Of a stretch of 39,636 nt of DNA, positions 34,300-39,636 are shown piece after piece. Positions within the stretch are counted from its first letter, which is position 1; every line of letters starts with the position of its first letter. A program made the position numbers and the translations under genes. Under the pieces are notes generated by a model. It did not search any database. It had not been told where the DNA came from and was given only the letters and a program-made list of their open reading frames with translations. This DNA is from Bacillota bacterium. GTDB lineage: Bacteria; Bacillota; DTU025; MWDF01. Location: positions 1 through 39,636 of the forward strand of contig JAGOKM010000004.1 of the NCBI GenBank assembly GCA_017994615.1. The letters run 5' to 3'.

Positions 34300-35343
34300 T
34301 TACTGCCTTGCGCTCCCTTTTGCGATTGAGCAAAGGTCTACTACCGCCGCGTCGAAGGCCCCGTCCTCGCCTATTGTTGTGTCCGTGAGCGCAGTCCCGC
34401 CTTTCATCTGCCTGTCCGCTTCTCCCAGCCTGACCAGCATCCTGGCCGCCTTGTGAGGCCCCAGCCTAGAAGCCGCGTTTACGGTCCTTTCGAGGATGAA
34501 GCTCGGCGCCCTGAGGTCTTTTTCCGTCTTTATCCTTTCCACTACCTCTTTCACGGACAAGCCGTCGCTTAACAGCTCCTGCATGCGGATCATCAAGCGC
34601 AGCTCAGACGCAATCGACGCCAGCATGAGCTGGTTGGGTATCCTAGGCTCGGTGCTCTCCCTGAACTGCCTTACCATGTGCATCGCCTGCGTGCTCCTGC
34701 CGTAGGCAATCGCGGTTATAAGGTCGGAAAGGCCCTCATGCTGGGCCTCCCCTACCGCCTTCCTTACATCGTCGCCCGTAGCCTGCGCAACGCCAACCCC
34801 AAGGTATGTGACCAGCTTGTCGACCTCCGAAGATACCAAGGACAGGTCCGTCCCCAGCCTCGAAATCAGGGCGTCGTATGCGTCGTCCGTCAGCACCAGC
34901 CCGACTTTGGAAGCATAGGCCCTCATGAACTCCCTTGCGTCCCTTTCGTAGGCCTTCTTGCATTCTATTAGTCCGACCCAACCCGCCGCCTTGGGCATCT
35001 TGATGCCCGCAGGCGGGAACTTCCTGTCAGCCCAGCTGATTGAGACAAATGTCCCGTCCGGCAAGGGGCAGGATCCTCCCTCGGTCAGGTCCGATAACAA
35101 CCTCTTGGCGTCAGCGGGCTTCAGCTCCTCGGCGTTTCTGACGATGACATGCCTCGCCGTGGAGAAGAGCGAGCCCGTCATCGCCTCCGAGAGTATCTCG
35201 GATACCCCTGAATCCGACGCTATTATGGACGTAATCTCGGCTCCTTCGTACCGGGATACGTAAGAGGAGACCCTTTCGATCTCCTCGTCGCGGCGGAAGT
35301 CCTCCTCGCCGTATATTATGTTCACTCTGTAAGGGGCCTTCAT
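34300..35343 (-). CDS. holA: DNA polymerase III delta subunit HolA
   Basis: About 347 residues. The delta subunit opens and loads the beta sliding clamp. The N-terminus YRVNIIYGEEDFRRDEEIER is the usual HolA opening (an ATPase-like fold lacking a working P-loop). The central RLGTDLSLVSSEVDKLVTYL is the family's most conserved block (about 165-185). The C-terminal helical domain ends with a KGGTALTDTTIGEDGAFDAAV-like stretch. The ATG at 35343 is used; an ATG at 35355 has its AG-rich site too close. It begins just after the ABC permease gene, so it may be transcribed from the ABC operon, an odd pairing. HolA next to rpsT is conserved in Firmicutes. Confidence 0.9.
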   Translation of the reverse strand: MKAPYRVNIIYGEEDFRRDEEIERVSSYVSRYEGAEITSIIASDSGVSEILSEAMTGSLFSTARHVIVRNAEELKPADAKRLLSDLTEGGSCPLPDGTFVSISWADRKFPPAGIKMPKAAGWVGLIECKKAYERDAREFMRAYASKVGLVLTDDAYDALISRLGTDLSLVSSEVDKLVTYLGVGVAQATGDDVRKAVGEAQHEGLSDLITAIAYGRSTQAMHMVRQFRESTEPRIPNQLMLASIASELRLMIRMQELLSDGLSVKEVVERIKTEKDLRAPSFILERTVNAASRLGPHKAARMLVRLGEADRQMKGGTALTDTTIGEDGAFDAAVVDLCSIAKGSARQ

Positions 35344-35358
35344 GCAGCTGCCCATCCC

Positions 35359-36309
35359 CTAGCTTTTCAGGCCTGTCCTTGCTATTCCCTGGATGAACTG
35401 CTTCTGGGCTATGAAGAACAGCACCAGTAGCGGGGCTATTGCGGTCGTCGAGGCTGCCATAAGCAGGTTAGGCTTGGTCCCGAACTCCTGGTTGAAGGAC
35501 GAAAGGCCTACCTGTATTGTCCTGAGCCTCGGGGAGTTCGTCACGATGAGCGGCCAGAGGAACGTGTTCCATCCGCTGATGAACGAGAACAGCCCCGTCG
35601 TGACCAGCACCGGGACGGCGAGAGGCAACATGACCCTCCATAGGTATTCGAACCTGGTGCAGCCGTCTATCTGGGCCGCATCCCAAAGCTCGGTCGGTAT
35701 CGTCATGAAGAACTGCCTCATCATGAATATGCTGAAGACGGAGGCGATCCAAGGTATGATAAGCGCCTTGTAAGTGTCTATCCAGCCCAGCTTGGCTACG
35801 ATTACGTAGTTGGGCACGAGGGTAACCTGCCCAGGTATCATCATCGTGCCGAGGAAGATGAGGAAAATCAGCTCCTTGCCCCTGAACTTCATGGTGGCGA
35901 AGGCATATGCGGCAAGCGCCGACGTTGCTAGCTGCAGCACCGTGGTGGAAATAGCTATCACGAAGCTGTTTATGTAGTACCACGGGAAATTCACGTCCTC
36001 TTTCCATGCGTTCACGTAGTTCACCCAGATGGTTGAAGCAAGCTTCCTTAGCTCTCCAGTAACCGGAAGGCCGAGGCTGGCATTCTGTCTGTCGGTCCTC
36101 CAAGCGTTAATGTACTCGGTAAGCTTCCAGTTCCTGGGTATCCACACCAGCTTTGCGGTGAAGGTCTCGTCCGACGTCTTGGTCGAGGTAGAAAGCATGT
36201 AATAGAAAGGCAGCAGCATTATTGCCGCCCCTGCTATAAGCAGTGCGTATATTACGAGTTTGTTCAACCTGCTGCCCATGCCGGGGGCGTTCCCCTTATT
36301 CTTGGCCAT
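35359..36309 (-). CDS. ABC sugar-type transporter permease (MalG/UgpE family)
   Basis: About 316 residues with six membrane helices. It is the second permease of a carbohydrate-uptake (CUT1-type) ABC importer. The cytoplasmic EAA loop is ELWDAAQIDGCTRFEYLWRVMLP, shown here in part as WDAAQIDGC, which contacts the ATPase. The insert between helices 1 and 2 (about 45-110) is long and exported, as in MalG. The start could be the GTG at 36318 or the ATG at 36309; GGTGG is five bases before the latter. The ATPase is not encoded in the window, so a shared MsmK/UgpC-like ATPase may be used. Substrate unknown. Confidence 0.92.
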   Translation of the reverse strand: MAKNKGNAPGMGSRLNKLVIYALLIAGAAIMLLPFYYMLSTSTKTSDETFTAKLVWIPRNWKLTEYINAWRTDRQNASLGLPVTGELRKLASTIWVNYVNAWKEDVNFPWYYINSFVIAISTTVLQLATSALAAYAFATMKFRGKELIFLIFLGTMMIPGQVTLVPNYVIVAKLGWIDTYKALIIPWIASVFSIFMMRQFFMTIPTELWDAAQIDGCTRFEYLWRVMLPLAVPVLVTTGLFSFISGWNTFLWPLIVTNSPRLRTIQVGLSSFNQEFGTKPNLLMAASTTAIAPLLVLFFIAQKQFIQGIARTGLKS

Positions 36310-36322
36310 CCTTTCCACCCCC

Positions 36323-37270
36323 CTACTGGTAGTAGACCTTCTTGCCCAGCATCTTCCTCTGGATTAGGGTAAGAAGGAATATCACGAAGAACAGGAAGTA
36401 TCCTATCGCCGCCGCGTAGCCGAAGCGGAATTCGCCCCAGCCTACGTCATATAGGTACTTGACTACGACAAGCGTCGTCTTGAGGGGGCCTCCCCCTCCT
36501 CCCGGCCACAGCACGTAAGCCTGCGTGAAGACCTGGAAGGAACCTATTATGGAGATTATCGTGAGGAAATATGTCGTAGGGGAAAGCAAAGGCCATGTGA
36601 TGTGGCTGAACAGCTTCCATCCCCTGGCCCCGTCAATGGCCGCCGCGTCGTAGTATTCCTGCGGTATGTTCTGCAGCCCCGCAAGGAAGATTATTATGTT
36701 ATAACCCAGATGCCTCCATACGCTCATGACCACGAGCGCGAACATGGACCATTTGGGGTCGAGCAGCCACTTCTCGCCCGAGATTCCGAACATGTTCAGG
36801 ATCGAGTTGAGCATGCCCGAGGAATCTTCCTTGTATATCCACATCCAGACGATGGATATGGCCACGACCGGAGTCACATAGGGAAGGAAGTAGGACGTCC
36901 TGAAGAAACCCGAACCTCTTATCTTCTGGTTCAGCAGGTATGCGATCGCAAGGGCCAGGGCCAGTCCCGTCGGAACCGTCCCCAGCACGTAAACAAGCGT
37001 ATTCTTCACCGATACCAGGAAATCGGGGTCTGAGAACATCTCTATGTAGTTTCCGGCGCCGATGAAGTTCCACCTGCCGAGGAGGTTGGTGTTGAACAGG
37101 CTGATATATGCGGCGTAGAAAGCCGGGAAGAAGTGGAACACAACCAGCACAGCGGTCGCCGGGATTATATACAGGTATGCCCCCAGATCGTCCAGGATCC
37201 CGTTCTTGCCGCTCCGTACGCCCCTGTTGCGCAAAGCCCCGTTCTTTCCTGAGTTATCTGCCACAGCCAC
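36323..37270 (-). CDS. ABC sugar-type transporter permease (MalF/UgpA family)
   Basis: A 315-residue protein with six membrane helices after a polar N-terminus (about 1-27). It is the first permease of a CUT1-type importer. The EAA loop contains YYDAAAIDGARGWKLF (about 206-221). A Gly-rich loop, PGGGGGPL, sits in the last third, at the place where MalF/UgpA proteins carry G-rich loops. The GTG at 37270 follows the PHP gene stop directly, with AGGTGG as RBS. It pairs with the MalG-type permease 13 bases downstream. The neighbourhood (solute-binding protein, secreted metallohydrolase) suggests import of a product released outside the inner membrane; the compound is unknown. Confidence 0.93.
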   Translation of the reverse strand: MAVADNSGKNGALRNRGVRSGKNGILDDLGAYLYIIPATAVLVVFHFFPAFYAAYISLFNTNLLGRWNFIGAGNYIEMFSDPDFLVSVKNTLVYVLGTVPTGLALALAIAYLLNQKIRGSGFFRTSYFLPYVTPVVAISIVWMWIYKEDSSGMLNSILNMFGISGEKWLLDPKWSMFALVVMSVWRHLGYNIIIFLAGLQNIPQEYYDAAAIDGARGWKLFSHITWPLLSPTTYFLTIISIIGSFQVFTQAYVLWPGGGGGPLKTTLVVVKYLYDVGWGEFRFGYAAAIGYFLFFVIFLLTLIQRKMLGKKVYYQ

Positions 37271-39337
37271 TTACTGCCACCTGCCCTCCATCAGCCATGC
37301 AAGCAAGTCAACCGCAAGGCGTCTGTTGTCGAAGCCGTCTTTCTTCAGTTCGTAATCGGAGAACAGCACGCTCCCTGCCAGAACAACCCTACCCCTGCCA
37401 ACGTTGTAGGCTGCAAGGAAGTATGGATCCTCGATTCTTGTCCCGTCGATGGTTGCGCTGTTGCCCGACGCGCCCGAGCCATGTACCAGCCATTGAGACC
37501 CGTCTGCGATTTTAAGGGCGCAGCCTTCCGTGAATGCAACCTTGTATTCGCCAAGCGGTGTGGTGACTATCGATGTCAAAGCAAGCGCTTCCCCCGAAAG
37601 GAGCATCCCTCCCGCGAACGATGCGCCTACTCCAAGCTTCTCAAGCAGCCTGTTGAAGTCCCTGGGGTCCCTTGAGCCGTCGCCCGCGTCGCCCCAGCCC
37701 ATGAGCATCAGGCTTCCGCCCTGCTTCACCCACTCTGCAAGGGCTTCGATCTCCGCATCTTCATAATACGTCGGCGTAAGGGCGAATCCCTGTTCCGGCA
37801 TCGGCAGGACAATCAGATTCAGGCCCTTTAGGTAGTCAGGCCTGATGATGTCCACAAGCACGCTGCCGTCGTAACCTGCCTGCTTCGCCAGTCCCAGCAG
37901 AGAAGAGTAATATGAAGTGAGCCTGTTGTTGTGCCCTTCGTCCACGGCCAACCGCATGGGTTCCTTCTCCATGACCTCGTACAGGCCTGCCATGAACGAC
38001 TGCGGCCCCGAGGCCGTCATTATCACCAGCTTGAGGGCAGCCTGCCCTTCCGAGGATGGCACCCACGGTATCGTCAGGTGGGCCCACCTGCCCGGGGTTA
38101 TGGAAAGGCTTCCCTCAGCCTTCTTCTCGAAACCGCTTCCCTGGTCGGAATATAGCTCATAGCCGACCTCTGCCGGGCTTTCCCCCGTGCGGTCGGCTAT
38201 GCGGGCATAGAAACTGGCCTGCTTACCCTTTACTATGAATGCGTCCTCTATGCGGAAGTCGGATGCGACGACGCCGGCTCCCGTCTCTATCCATATAGGG
38301 GTGGTTATGATGCGGTCCCCGTCGGCTTGCGTCATTCTGGCGTAGAAGTAGCTGTAATCCAGCTCTGTGGTGACCCTGAAGCTGAAAGTCCCGCCCTTGA
38401 CGGCGTTGACGGCGGAAACGACCCTGCCTCCGTTGGTAATGAGCTCTATCTTCGAGTAGAGGTCCCCGTCGGGGTCCTCCGCATAGACTTCAATTTCGAA
38501 TTCCCTTCCTATGGCCGGGCCGTTTGTAAGCATAGTGTCGCCCATAACGTATTCCCCGCTCCATATCAGGGCCCTGGCGTTTTTGTCCTCTGTCGAGTAT
38601 GTGCGCATGTTGCGCATCGCGTCCATTATTGAGTCCCTGTTAAGCTCGCGGGCCACTATACCCGTCCTTACAGGCGCTGCGGTCCCCCAGTCGTCCCTGT
38701 GGTTGTCCTGGTTGTTGACTGCCCCGACCTTCCAGCCCCTGTCCAAGGCCTTGATGTATGAGGGTTCGTTCCTTGTGTTCCGGTAGTAGGCTCCCGATCC
38801 TACCTCTATCATGGAGACAACATCGTCCGCGTAGGCCCAGTAGGAGAAGTCGTTCCAGTTGGGCTGTATCTCCGGGTTGGGATGGTTGAACGTGGCGATT
38901 CCGTTGAACTCGTGCAGGTATTCTATGAAGGCGGTGAAGTCGCGCTGTGTGTCCCTCGACGCCGCCTTCGGAGTGCCGTAACCGTTCATGTGCCCTTCGG
39001 AGTGCGTCCATTCATAACCCACGAGGGGTACGAACTCCCCAGGTCTGTAGAACGCGTCGGCTTCCTCATGAGACTTGTACCATAGGTGGATATTGGTGAT
39101 CTCCTGGAAATAGTAGCCGTGCTCCGTCAGCGAGAAGAAGTCCATGTCCCCTGCGCCGCTCACCTTCTTGTATGCGTCTGTCGGAGTGCCCATCCCGTCC
39201 GAGTAGGAAGTATGCGCATGCAGATTCCCGAAGTAGTAATTGAATTCCGGCACTGCCGTGCCGGATGCAGCCGCAGCGCCCGTGGCCGCCAGGAAGAGCA
39301 TGATGAGAGCTGTAATGCATAAGGCCCTGTTCCTCAT
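37271..39337 (-). CDS. Secreted PHP-domain metallohydrolase (CehA/McbA-like) with GATase-like C-terminal domain
   Basis: A 688-residue exported protein. A signal peptide covers about 1-25. The PHP domain (about 33-270) keeps the metal-site motifs: NLHAHTSYSDG (His40, His42, Asp47), LTEHG (Glu72, His73), YEWTH (Glu109, His112), TFNHPNP (His152) and NNQDNH (Asp211, His213). This is the CehA/McbA branch, whose known members hydrolyse carbamates or phosphoesters. Beta-rich linker domains follow (about 275-450). A Rossmann-like GATase/DUF4350-type domain at about 460-688 has LIVLPMPEQG, EWVKQGGSLML and a SDYELKKDGFDNRRL end. No catalytic Cys triad of true amidotransferases is seen, so it may be a binding domain. 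GGAGG lies seven bases before the ATG. Placed between the binding protein and permeases of an ABC importer. Confidence 0.85.
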   Translation of the reverse strand: MRNRALCITALIMLFLAATGAAAASGTAVPEFNYYFGNLHAHTSYSDGMGTPTDAYKKVSGAGDMDFFSLTEHGYYFQEITNIHLWYKSHEEADAFYRPGEFVPLVGYEWTHSEGHMNGYGTPKAASRDTQRDFTAFIEYLHEFNGIATFNHPNPEIQPNWNDFSYWAYADDVVSMIEVGSGAYYRNTRNEPSYIKALDRGWKVGAVNNQDNHRDDWGTAAPVRTGIVARELNRDSIMDAMRNMRTYSTEDKNARALIWSGEYVMGDTMLTNGPAIGREFEIEVYAEDPDGDLYSKIELITNGGRVVSAVNAVKGGTFSFRVTTELDYSYFYARMTQADGDRIITTPIWIETGAGVVASDFRIEDAFIVKGKQASFYARIADRTGESPAEVGYELYSDQGSGFEKKAEGSLSITPGRWAHLTIPWVPSSEGQAALKLVIMTASGPQSFMAGLYEVMEKEPMRLAVDEGHNNRLTSYYSSLLGLAKQAGYDGSVLVDIIRPDYLKGLNLIVLPMPEQGFALTPTYYEDAEIEALAEWVKQGGSLMLMGWGDAGDGSRDPRDFNRLLEKLGVGASFAGGMLLSGEALALTSIVTTPLGEYKVAFTEGCALKIADGSQWLVHGSGASGNSATIDGTRIEDPYFLAAYNVGRGRVVLAGSVLFSDYELKKDGFDNRRLAVDLLAWLMEGRWQ

Positions 39338-39368
39338 TCGGCTTCCTCCAGAGATTTCTAATCGTCAA

Positions 39369-39408
39369 CCAGCCCAGGGGCTTGGCTGCCGCCTCGACCC
39401 TGGGCTGG
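39369..39408 (-). other. Intercistronic hairpin between binding protein and PHP gene
   Basis: A perfect 11-bp stem, ccagcccaggg (39369-39379) with ccctgggctgg (39398-39408), around an 18-base loop. No T-run follows on the minus strand. Such hairpins after binding-protein genes often protect the upstream mRNA or partly stop transcription, so the binding protein is made in excess. Confidence 0.6.
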
Positions 39409-39433
39409 CGTCACTTATACCGGCCGGGTTGCG

Positions 39434-39636
39434 TCAGAACCCCAGCTTCTTGTTCCCGACCGCGACCGCTTCGTTGAGGGCCTCGGCAACTGTCGCCTTG
39501 GCCAGGAAAGCCTTCTGCACGGCGGTGCTGATATCGCCGCGTATTCCGTTCCAGGCGGCGAGGTTCGGGCCGTACTTGCTGCAGTTGAGCTGTTTGAGGC
39601 TCTGCTCGGCCTTGGTGTTCTTCGCGAAGACCTCCT
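39434..39636 (-). CDS. ABC solute-binding protein, C-terminal end (partial)
   Basis: Only the last 66 residues are in the window; the rest lies beyond the right edge. The visible part includes AEQSLKQLNCSKYGPNLAAW, then RGDISTAVQKAF and ATVAEALNEAVAVGNKKLGF before the TGA. That is the usual C-terminus of sugar-type (SBP_bac_1) binding proteins, in which an amphipathic helix with A-L-N-E-A-V ends the chain. It would deliver ligand to the two permeases encoded downstream. The binding specificity cannot be read from this fragment. Confidence 0.85.
   Translation of the reverse strand, partial: EVFAKNTKAEQSLKQLNCSKYGPNLAAWNGIRGDISTAVQKAFLAKATVAEALNEAVAVGNKKLGF

Follow-up and report, generated by a model that had tools for sequence, protein, structure and literature searches.

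A conserved cassette of an exported CehA/McbA-family PHP metallohydrolase and a UgpB-like ABC importer: a possible organophosphodiester uptake module

Why does a gene for an exported metallohydrolase stand between the genes of an ABC importer, and what would such an enzyme deliver to the transporter? We examined this arrangement in a window of 39,636 nt, the whole of one contig (G000:C55) from a draft genome of 1.46 Mb with a completeness of 78%. On the minus strand, read 5′ to 3′, it carries the end of a solute-binding protein (SBP) gene, the gene of a 688-aa exported protein, the genes of permease A and permease B, holA, lepA, and hemW (Table 1). A preliminary description had placed an exported metallohydrolase gene between a binding protein gene and permease genes, and all of these features and their positions were confirmed. 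The SBP is truncated because the assembly contig stops there; the retained fragment matches residues 364-429 of the L002 SBP, from a related locus, with 89% identity. The hydrolase gene and the permease A gene are separated by 0 nt and the two permease genes by 4 nt, and holA, which had been described as following immediately, starts 3 nt after permease B. The 99-nt stretch between the SBP and hydrolase genes folds into a strong hairpin, and comparable hairpins were found at the same position in five related loci (L002, L030, L022, L026, and L027). Hairpins behind SBP genes are common and favour higher SBP expression. No RNA family of Rfam matched anywhere in the window. The genes checked in the remainder (positions 3985-33804), namely recJ, tgt, queA, era, an HDIG protein gene, a phoH-like gene, floA, mtaB, rsmE, hemW, and lepA, were all housekeeping or common genes.

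Table 1. Positions of the cassette features and of the downstream gene in the window
Feature	Position	Strand	Evidence or remark
SBP, C-terminal 66 codons and stop	39434..39636	-	Codons 39437-39634; rest beyond contig end
Intercistronic hairpin between SBP and hydrolase genes, CCAGCCCAGGG...CCCTGGGCTGG	39369..39408	-	Folding of the 99-nt intergenic stretch, -40.5 kcal/mol
Exported CehA/McbA-family PHP metallohydrolase, 688 aa	37271..39337	-	NF038032, 116.5 bits vs cut-off 80; model pLDDT 91
Signal peptide, about residues 1-24, Sec type, without lipobox	39266..39337	-	By eye from the translation; low-confidence N-terminal helix in the model
CehA/McbA (PHP) catalytic region, residues 33-351, nine metal ligands	38285..39241	-	NF038032, alignment, structure comparison
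All-beta Ig-like domain, about residues 356-456	37970..38272	-	Secondary structure of the model; weak PDB profile matches 2kut, 2kl6
DUF4350/IFT52-GIFT-like domain, residues 461-688	37274..37957	-	PF14258, 32.4 bits vs 30.4; 5fmr, 2.9e-8; 5fms, TM-score 0.72 (target length)
CUT1 permease A (UgpA/MalF-like)	36323..37270	-	PF00528, 4.6e-21
CUT1 permease B (UgpE/MalG-like)	35359..36318	-	PF00528, 1.5e-20
holA (housekeeping; conserved downstream neighbour, outside the system)	34300..35355	-	TIGR01128, 144 bits vs 80

The neighbourhood survey that had been suggested for this locus detected the order comEC-SBP-hydrolase-permease A-permease B in 15 loci besides the window, which belong to two lineages (L031 was left out of the count as it comes from the same genome as L002). 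Since the same order recurs in 15 further loci, the gene arrangement is far beyond chance. Where the stretch reached far enough and the gene was recognised, holA followed the cassette, which was not so for L028, L029, and L067. All loci that extend far enough have the cassette immediately after comEC, and the comEC domains were intact where checked. The identity of the hydrolases across the conserved loci goes down to 33%. Their pairwise distances are correlated with those of the SBP and the permeases (r 0.93-0.98), as fits inheritance as a unit. The comEC-holA neighbourhood is an old one in Firmicutes. The simplest account is a single ancient insertion between comEC and holA with retention ever since, and the adjacency to comEC does not amount to separate support for a link with competence. 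A scan of genome contigs gave at least one relative, the MAG USDV_metabat.107. Related but more distant SBP and permease genes occur without a hydrolase gene in G197, where the set adjoins a gene read by eye as guaA, and in G158, which indicates that transport does not strictly require the hydrolase. In G158 (L093:6474-11627), an AP_endonuc_2 TIM-barrel gene and a small PHP gene lie downstream of those for a UgpB-like SBP and permeases, so that a transporter of this type is paired with a PHP protein for a second time.

The hydrolase had been recognised correctly as a PHP metallohydrolase but had been presented without its curated family. Its residues 33-351 scored above the curated cut-off of the NCBIfam CehA/McbA metallohydrolase model, as did the orthologues in L029 and L064, whereas the Pfam PHP model PF02811 gave 18 bits, below its gathering score of 26.4. 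Its membership of the PHP superfamily is thus based on NF038032 and on the match to the structure 3E38 in both profile and fold, not on PF02811. The namesake CehA is a carbamate hydrolase that acts on a pesticide; the window enzyme resembles this family in the catalytic region and the PHP metal ligands, but it has additional beta and GIFT-like domains and is encoded between SBP and permease genes. Given a carbamate-cleaving CehA, the PHP fold alone would be no guarantee of phosphoester chemistry. The metal site is complete, as originally proposed: nine ligands (H40, H42, D47, H73, E109, H116, H152, D211, and H213) are present and were invariant in 12 of 12 aligned sequences. Among 35 diverse rows, E109, H116, H152, D211, and H213 were invariant and each of the other four was kept in at least 90%, and no loss of metal ligands was seen in the close homologues.

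The AlphaFold model of the hydrolase was calculated from 35 sequences, an earlier model from 12 sequences being poor in the PHP part. It showed a mean pLDDT of 91 and consisted of the PHP domain, beta domains, and a C-terminal IFT52-GIFT/DUF4350 fold; neither an OB-fold nor an LTD domain was found in the window hydrolase. When the 35-row profile was compared with the PDB, the nearest solved structure was 3E38 (7.7e-15), followed by TM0559 (2ANU), the exoribonuclease 7UG9, 3E0F, and 2YB1, and 3E38 also ranked first when Foldseek was run with the model. The profile was needed for this result, as phmmer with the single hydrolase sequence found nothing in the PDB. 3E38 is the single solved structure among the homologues of Sb-PDE, which, like No-PDE, is a secreted PHP phosphodiesterase (PMC11656708); Sb-PDE is likewise described as exported in PMC5460133. 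The metal ligands listed for these two enzymes (H61, H63, D68, H93, E135, H142, H203, D260, and H262; PMC11656708) match those of the hydrolase in order and mostly in spacing (HxH, D+7, E-x6-H, DxH). Sb-PDE and No-PDE degrade flame-retardant diesters, and the available portions of both papers report no importer operon for them. The exported metal-dependent hydrolase probably cuts phosphate esters.

The C-terminal region had been described as GATase/DUF4350-like. The DUF4350 part of this assignment holds, since the predicted structure of residues 455-688 has a GIFT/IFT52-like fold (PF14258 and 5fms; Table 1), but the GATase part does not. The domain contains an invariant DEGHNNR motif and no invariant Cys among 12 aligned sequences. 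Because a GIFT/DUF4350-type fold is combined with the lack of an invariant Cys, an active GATase is unlikely, and the glutamine-amidotransferase reading was rejected as the nearest fold is the IFT52 GIFT domain and the catalytic Cys of class I GATases is absent. Its role is probably in binding or as a scaffold and not in catalysis.

The closest solved structures to the cassette SBPs were those of a Thermus thermophilus SBP that binds U3G (7C14/7C0F, 1.4e-49; PDB 7C0F-7C1B), followed by E. coli UgpB. Chandravanshi (2021), as cited in PMC12718374, describes the Thermus protein as one that binds dinucleotides. In UgpB, two Tyr and two Ser bind the phosphate, Glu, Gly, and Arg bind hydroxyls, and two Trp form a glycerol clamp, and the Tyr/Ser phosphate set is absent from glucose-binding proteins (PMC12718374, 2025). 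In the cassette SBPs, Y65, S144, S271, Y346, G307, and R397 (E. coli numbering) were invariant wherever the position is present; of this pocket set, only R397 falls within the SBP fragment of the window. Which residue corresponds to Ser266 varies with the alignment, and E. coli column 271 is Ser in all cassette SBPs. The position of the UgpB Glu is occupied by Gly, and no Trp aligned at the clamp positions. The Thermus SBP has the phosphate residues in common with the cassette SBPs and likewise lacks the Trp clamp, but its Glu89 corresponds to Gly in the cassette. The SBP of L002 scored 128.7 bits against the UgpB equivalog model NF008211, far under the cut-off of 411, and a canonical UgpB equivalog was ruled out by this score together with the missing Glu and Trp. 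As negative controls, two other SBPs of the same genome lacked most of the phosphate-pocket set. They belong to two further CUT1-type systems (G000:C48, L131; G000:C95, L132), each of which has its own UgpC/MalK-like ATPase.

No lipobox Cys was found at the expected cleavage site of the SBPs, and Omp85 is encoded in 12 of 12 genomes of the order, which is one of the two cassette lineages. On these sequence features, it is likely that the SBP and the hydrolase are soluble periplasmic proteins of a diderm bacterium.

With an SBP and two BPD_transp_1 permeases, the transporter is a CUT1 importer. The best NCBIfam models were UgpA for permease A (133.7 bits) and UgpE for permease B (153.2 bits), both under the equivalog cut-offs of 335 and 297, respectively. 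The designation as a sugar-type importer is therefore appropriate at the level of the CUT1 superfamily only, as the SBP is UgpB-like and has a phosphate pocket. The cassette resembles the E. coli UgpBAEC-UgpQ system in its UgpB-like SBP, its UgpA- and UgpE-like permeases, and the presence of a hydrolase gene in the operon; it differs in that UgpQ is a GDPD and not a PHP enzyme, that ugpC is part of the E. coli operon, and that the cassette SBP lacks the Trp clamp and the Glu. No ATPase gene was found near the cassette in the window, as had been observed before, which is ordinary: shared ATPases are usual in Bacillota. Two MalK/UgpC-type ATPases (OB_MalK) are encoded elsewhere in the genome, so that the transporter is not to be regarded as incomplete and a shared ATPase is likely. 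Either of the two may serve the cassette importer.

The preliminary description knew of no system with this exact arrangement, a statement that is weakened by the recurrence of CehA/McbA genes beside ABC importers in the phylum. Of 40 other CehA/McbA loci, 11 had a gene for a CUT1- or related permease within the fetched stretch, one of them marginal (L147); since the 40 loci are from one phylum and mainly from the top of a ranked list, this is not an unbiased rate. Four loci (L141, L142, L144, and L145) share a recurrent operon of SBP, permease, permease, ATPase, CehA/McbA, and GH38 alpha-mannosidase genes, which indicates that the family is not restricted to organophosphates; Pfam confirmed the GH38 assignment in two of them, L141 and L144. 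The CehA protein of these alpha-mannosidase operons has no evident signal peptide. Two loci (L154 and L155) have an importer-ATPase-CehA operon, and another (L140:5182-7007, G076) is an ABC importer locus with a CehA/McbA gene adjacent to a GDPD gene. No description of a CehA/McbA importer operon was found in the literature searched, which covered few subscription journals. The nearest wider homologues of the hydrolase are giant secreted proteins; of nine examined, seven had an OB-fold nucleic-acid-binding domain and four an LTD domain. One of these giant PHP proteins (L069:1873-14250, G341) carries LTD, OB-fold, CARDB, and calcineurin-like domains, and its gene is followed by a separate 5′-nucleotidase-C/SLH frame with a Bmp-type nucleoside ABC importer beside it; the two frames may be one broken gene.

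Because phosphate chemistry is common to the enzyme and the binding protein, we prefer an organophosphodiester uptake module, and a periplasmic phospho(di)esterase that feeds an organophosphodiester importer is the best reading, in which we have moderate confidence. The earlier proposal of an extracytoplasmic hydrolase supplying the importer is retained in this form, with the SBP pocket favouring a phosphoester over a carbamate or polymer. The four genes for the SBP, the hydrolase, and permeases A and B would act as one uptake cassette. The 688-aa protein would be exported to the periplasm, where the most likely substrate of its trinuclear-type PHP site is a phosphate ester, probably a diester, and we infer that hydrolysis could precede uptake. 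The SBP would capture the product or the intact diester and grip the phosphate by two Tyr and two Ser, and the two permeases would import this ligand with the power of a MalK/UgpC-type ATPase encoded elsewhere, while the GIFT-like domain would take no part in catalysis. The CehA/McbA gene beside the GDPD gene in the L140 importer locus appears to count for the organophosphodiester reading, whereas the divergence of the SBP from UgpB in its pocket residues and equivalog score would count against it.

Two more specific forms of this reading, which overlap with it and do not add to its strength, are about equally supported. In the first, the hydrolase would act in the periplasm as a nuclease, a nucleotidase, or a phosphodiesterase on oligonucleotides, with the importer taking up (di)nucleotides as a salvage arm near comEA/comEC. 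We regard it as a tentative possibility. It agrees with the Thermus U3G-binding protein as the best match of the SBP, although the dinucleotide in that protein may not be its natural ligand, and with the position directly downstream of comEC, although this may reflect one insertion and vertical inheritance in an old neighbourhood. The OB-fold and 5′-nucleotidase domains of the wider relatives, including the calcineurin-like domain, the neighbouring frame, and the Bmp importer of L069, lean towards nucleic acid. LTD and OB-like regions also build up the extracellular nuclease ExeM (PMC6085458); these modules are common to the ExeM/YhcR nucleases and the wider relatives, but the catalytic domain of ExeM is EEP and not PHP, and the window hydrolase itself has neither module.

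In the second form, which is likewise possible but doubtful, the enzyme would be a PHP-type analogue of GlpQ/UgpQ that supplies a Ugp-like importer by freeing glycerol phosphate from deacylated phospholipids. The highest-scoring curated models are UgpB for the SBP and UgpA and UgpE for the two permeases, but all scores are far under the Ugp equivalog cut-offs; the SBPs keep the phosphate set, Gly, and Arg, but not the glycerol-phosphate Trp clamp and Glu. GDPD genes are present in 12 of 12 genomes of the order, in addition to the one that neighbours a CehA/McbA gene in L140, but the two GDPD loci examined in the order showed no linkage to the cassette.

A scavenging module in a competence operon, in which a periplasmic PHP nuclease or phosphodiesterase breaks down DNA that is coming in or is not transported, or fragments of extracellular RNA/DNA, and a dinucleotide-type ABC importer recovers the pieces near ComEA/ComEC, seems rather unlikely. 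We also consider it unlikely that the enzyme acts by CehA-like chemistry on a non-phosphorus compound, as a carboxyl-ester, carbamate, or glycan-linked hydrolase whose product is imported by the CUT1 system. The family name and the CehA precedent point in this direction (carbamate degradation is reportedly the subject of a review), as do the several operons with GH38; arguments against it are the SBP's phosphate pocket, a metal site like that of 3E38/Sb-PDE, and nearest structures that are named as phosphoesterases. Finally, the hydrolase could be co-transcribed with the importer and have an unrelated role in the envelope, as the hydrolase-free sets of G197 and G158 would allow, but this is very unlikely given that its gene lies between those of the SBP and the permeases, with no gap to permease A in the window, and that this position is kept across two lineages with distances that track those of the transporter proteins.

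The organophosphodiester reading provides a testable substrate class, phosphodiesters, for a secreted hydrolase of the CehA/McbA family, which is known mainly from pesticide degradation. The present results also show more than one link between this family and ABC importers in Bacillota. If the nucleic-acid form is true, DNA uptake and nucleotide salvage would be combined in one operon in a diderm lineage.
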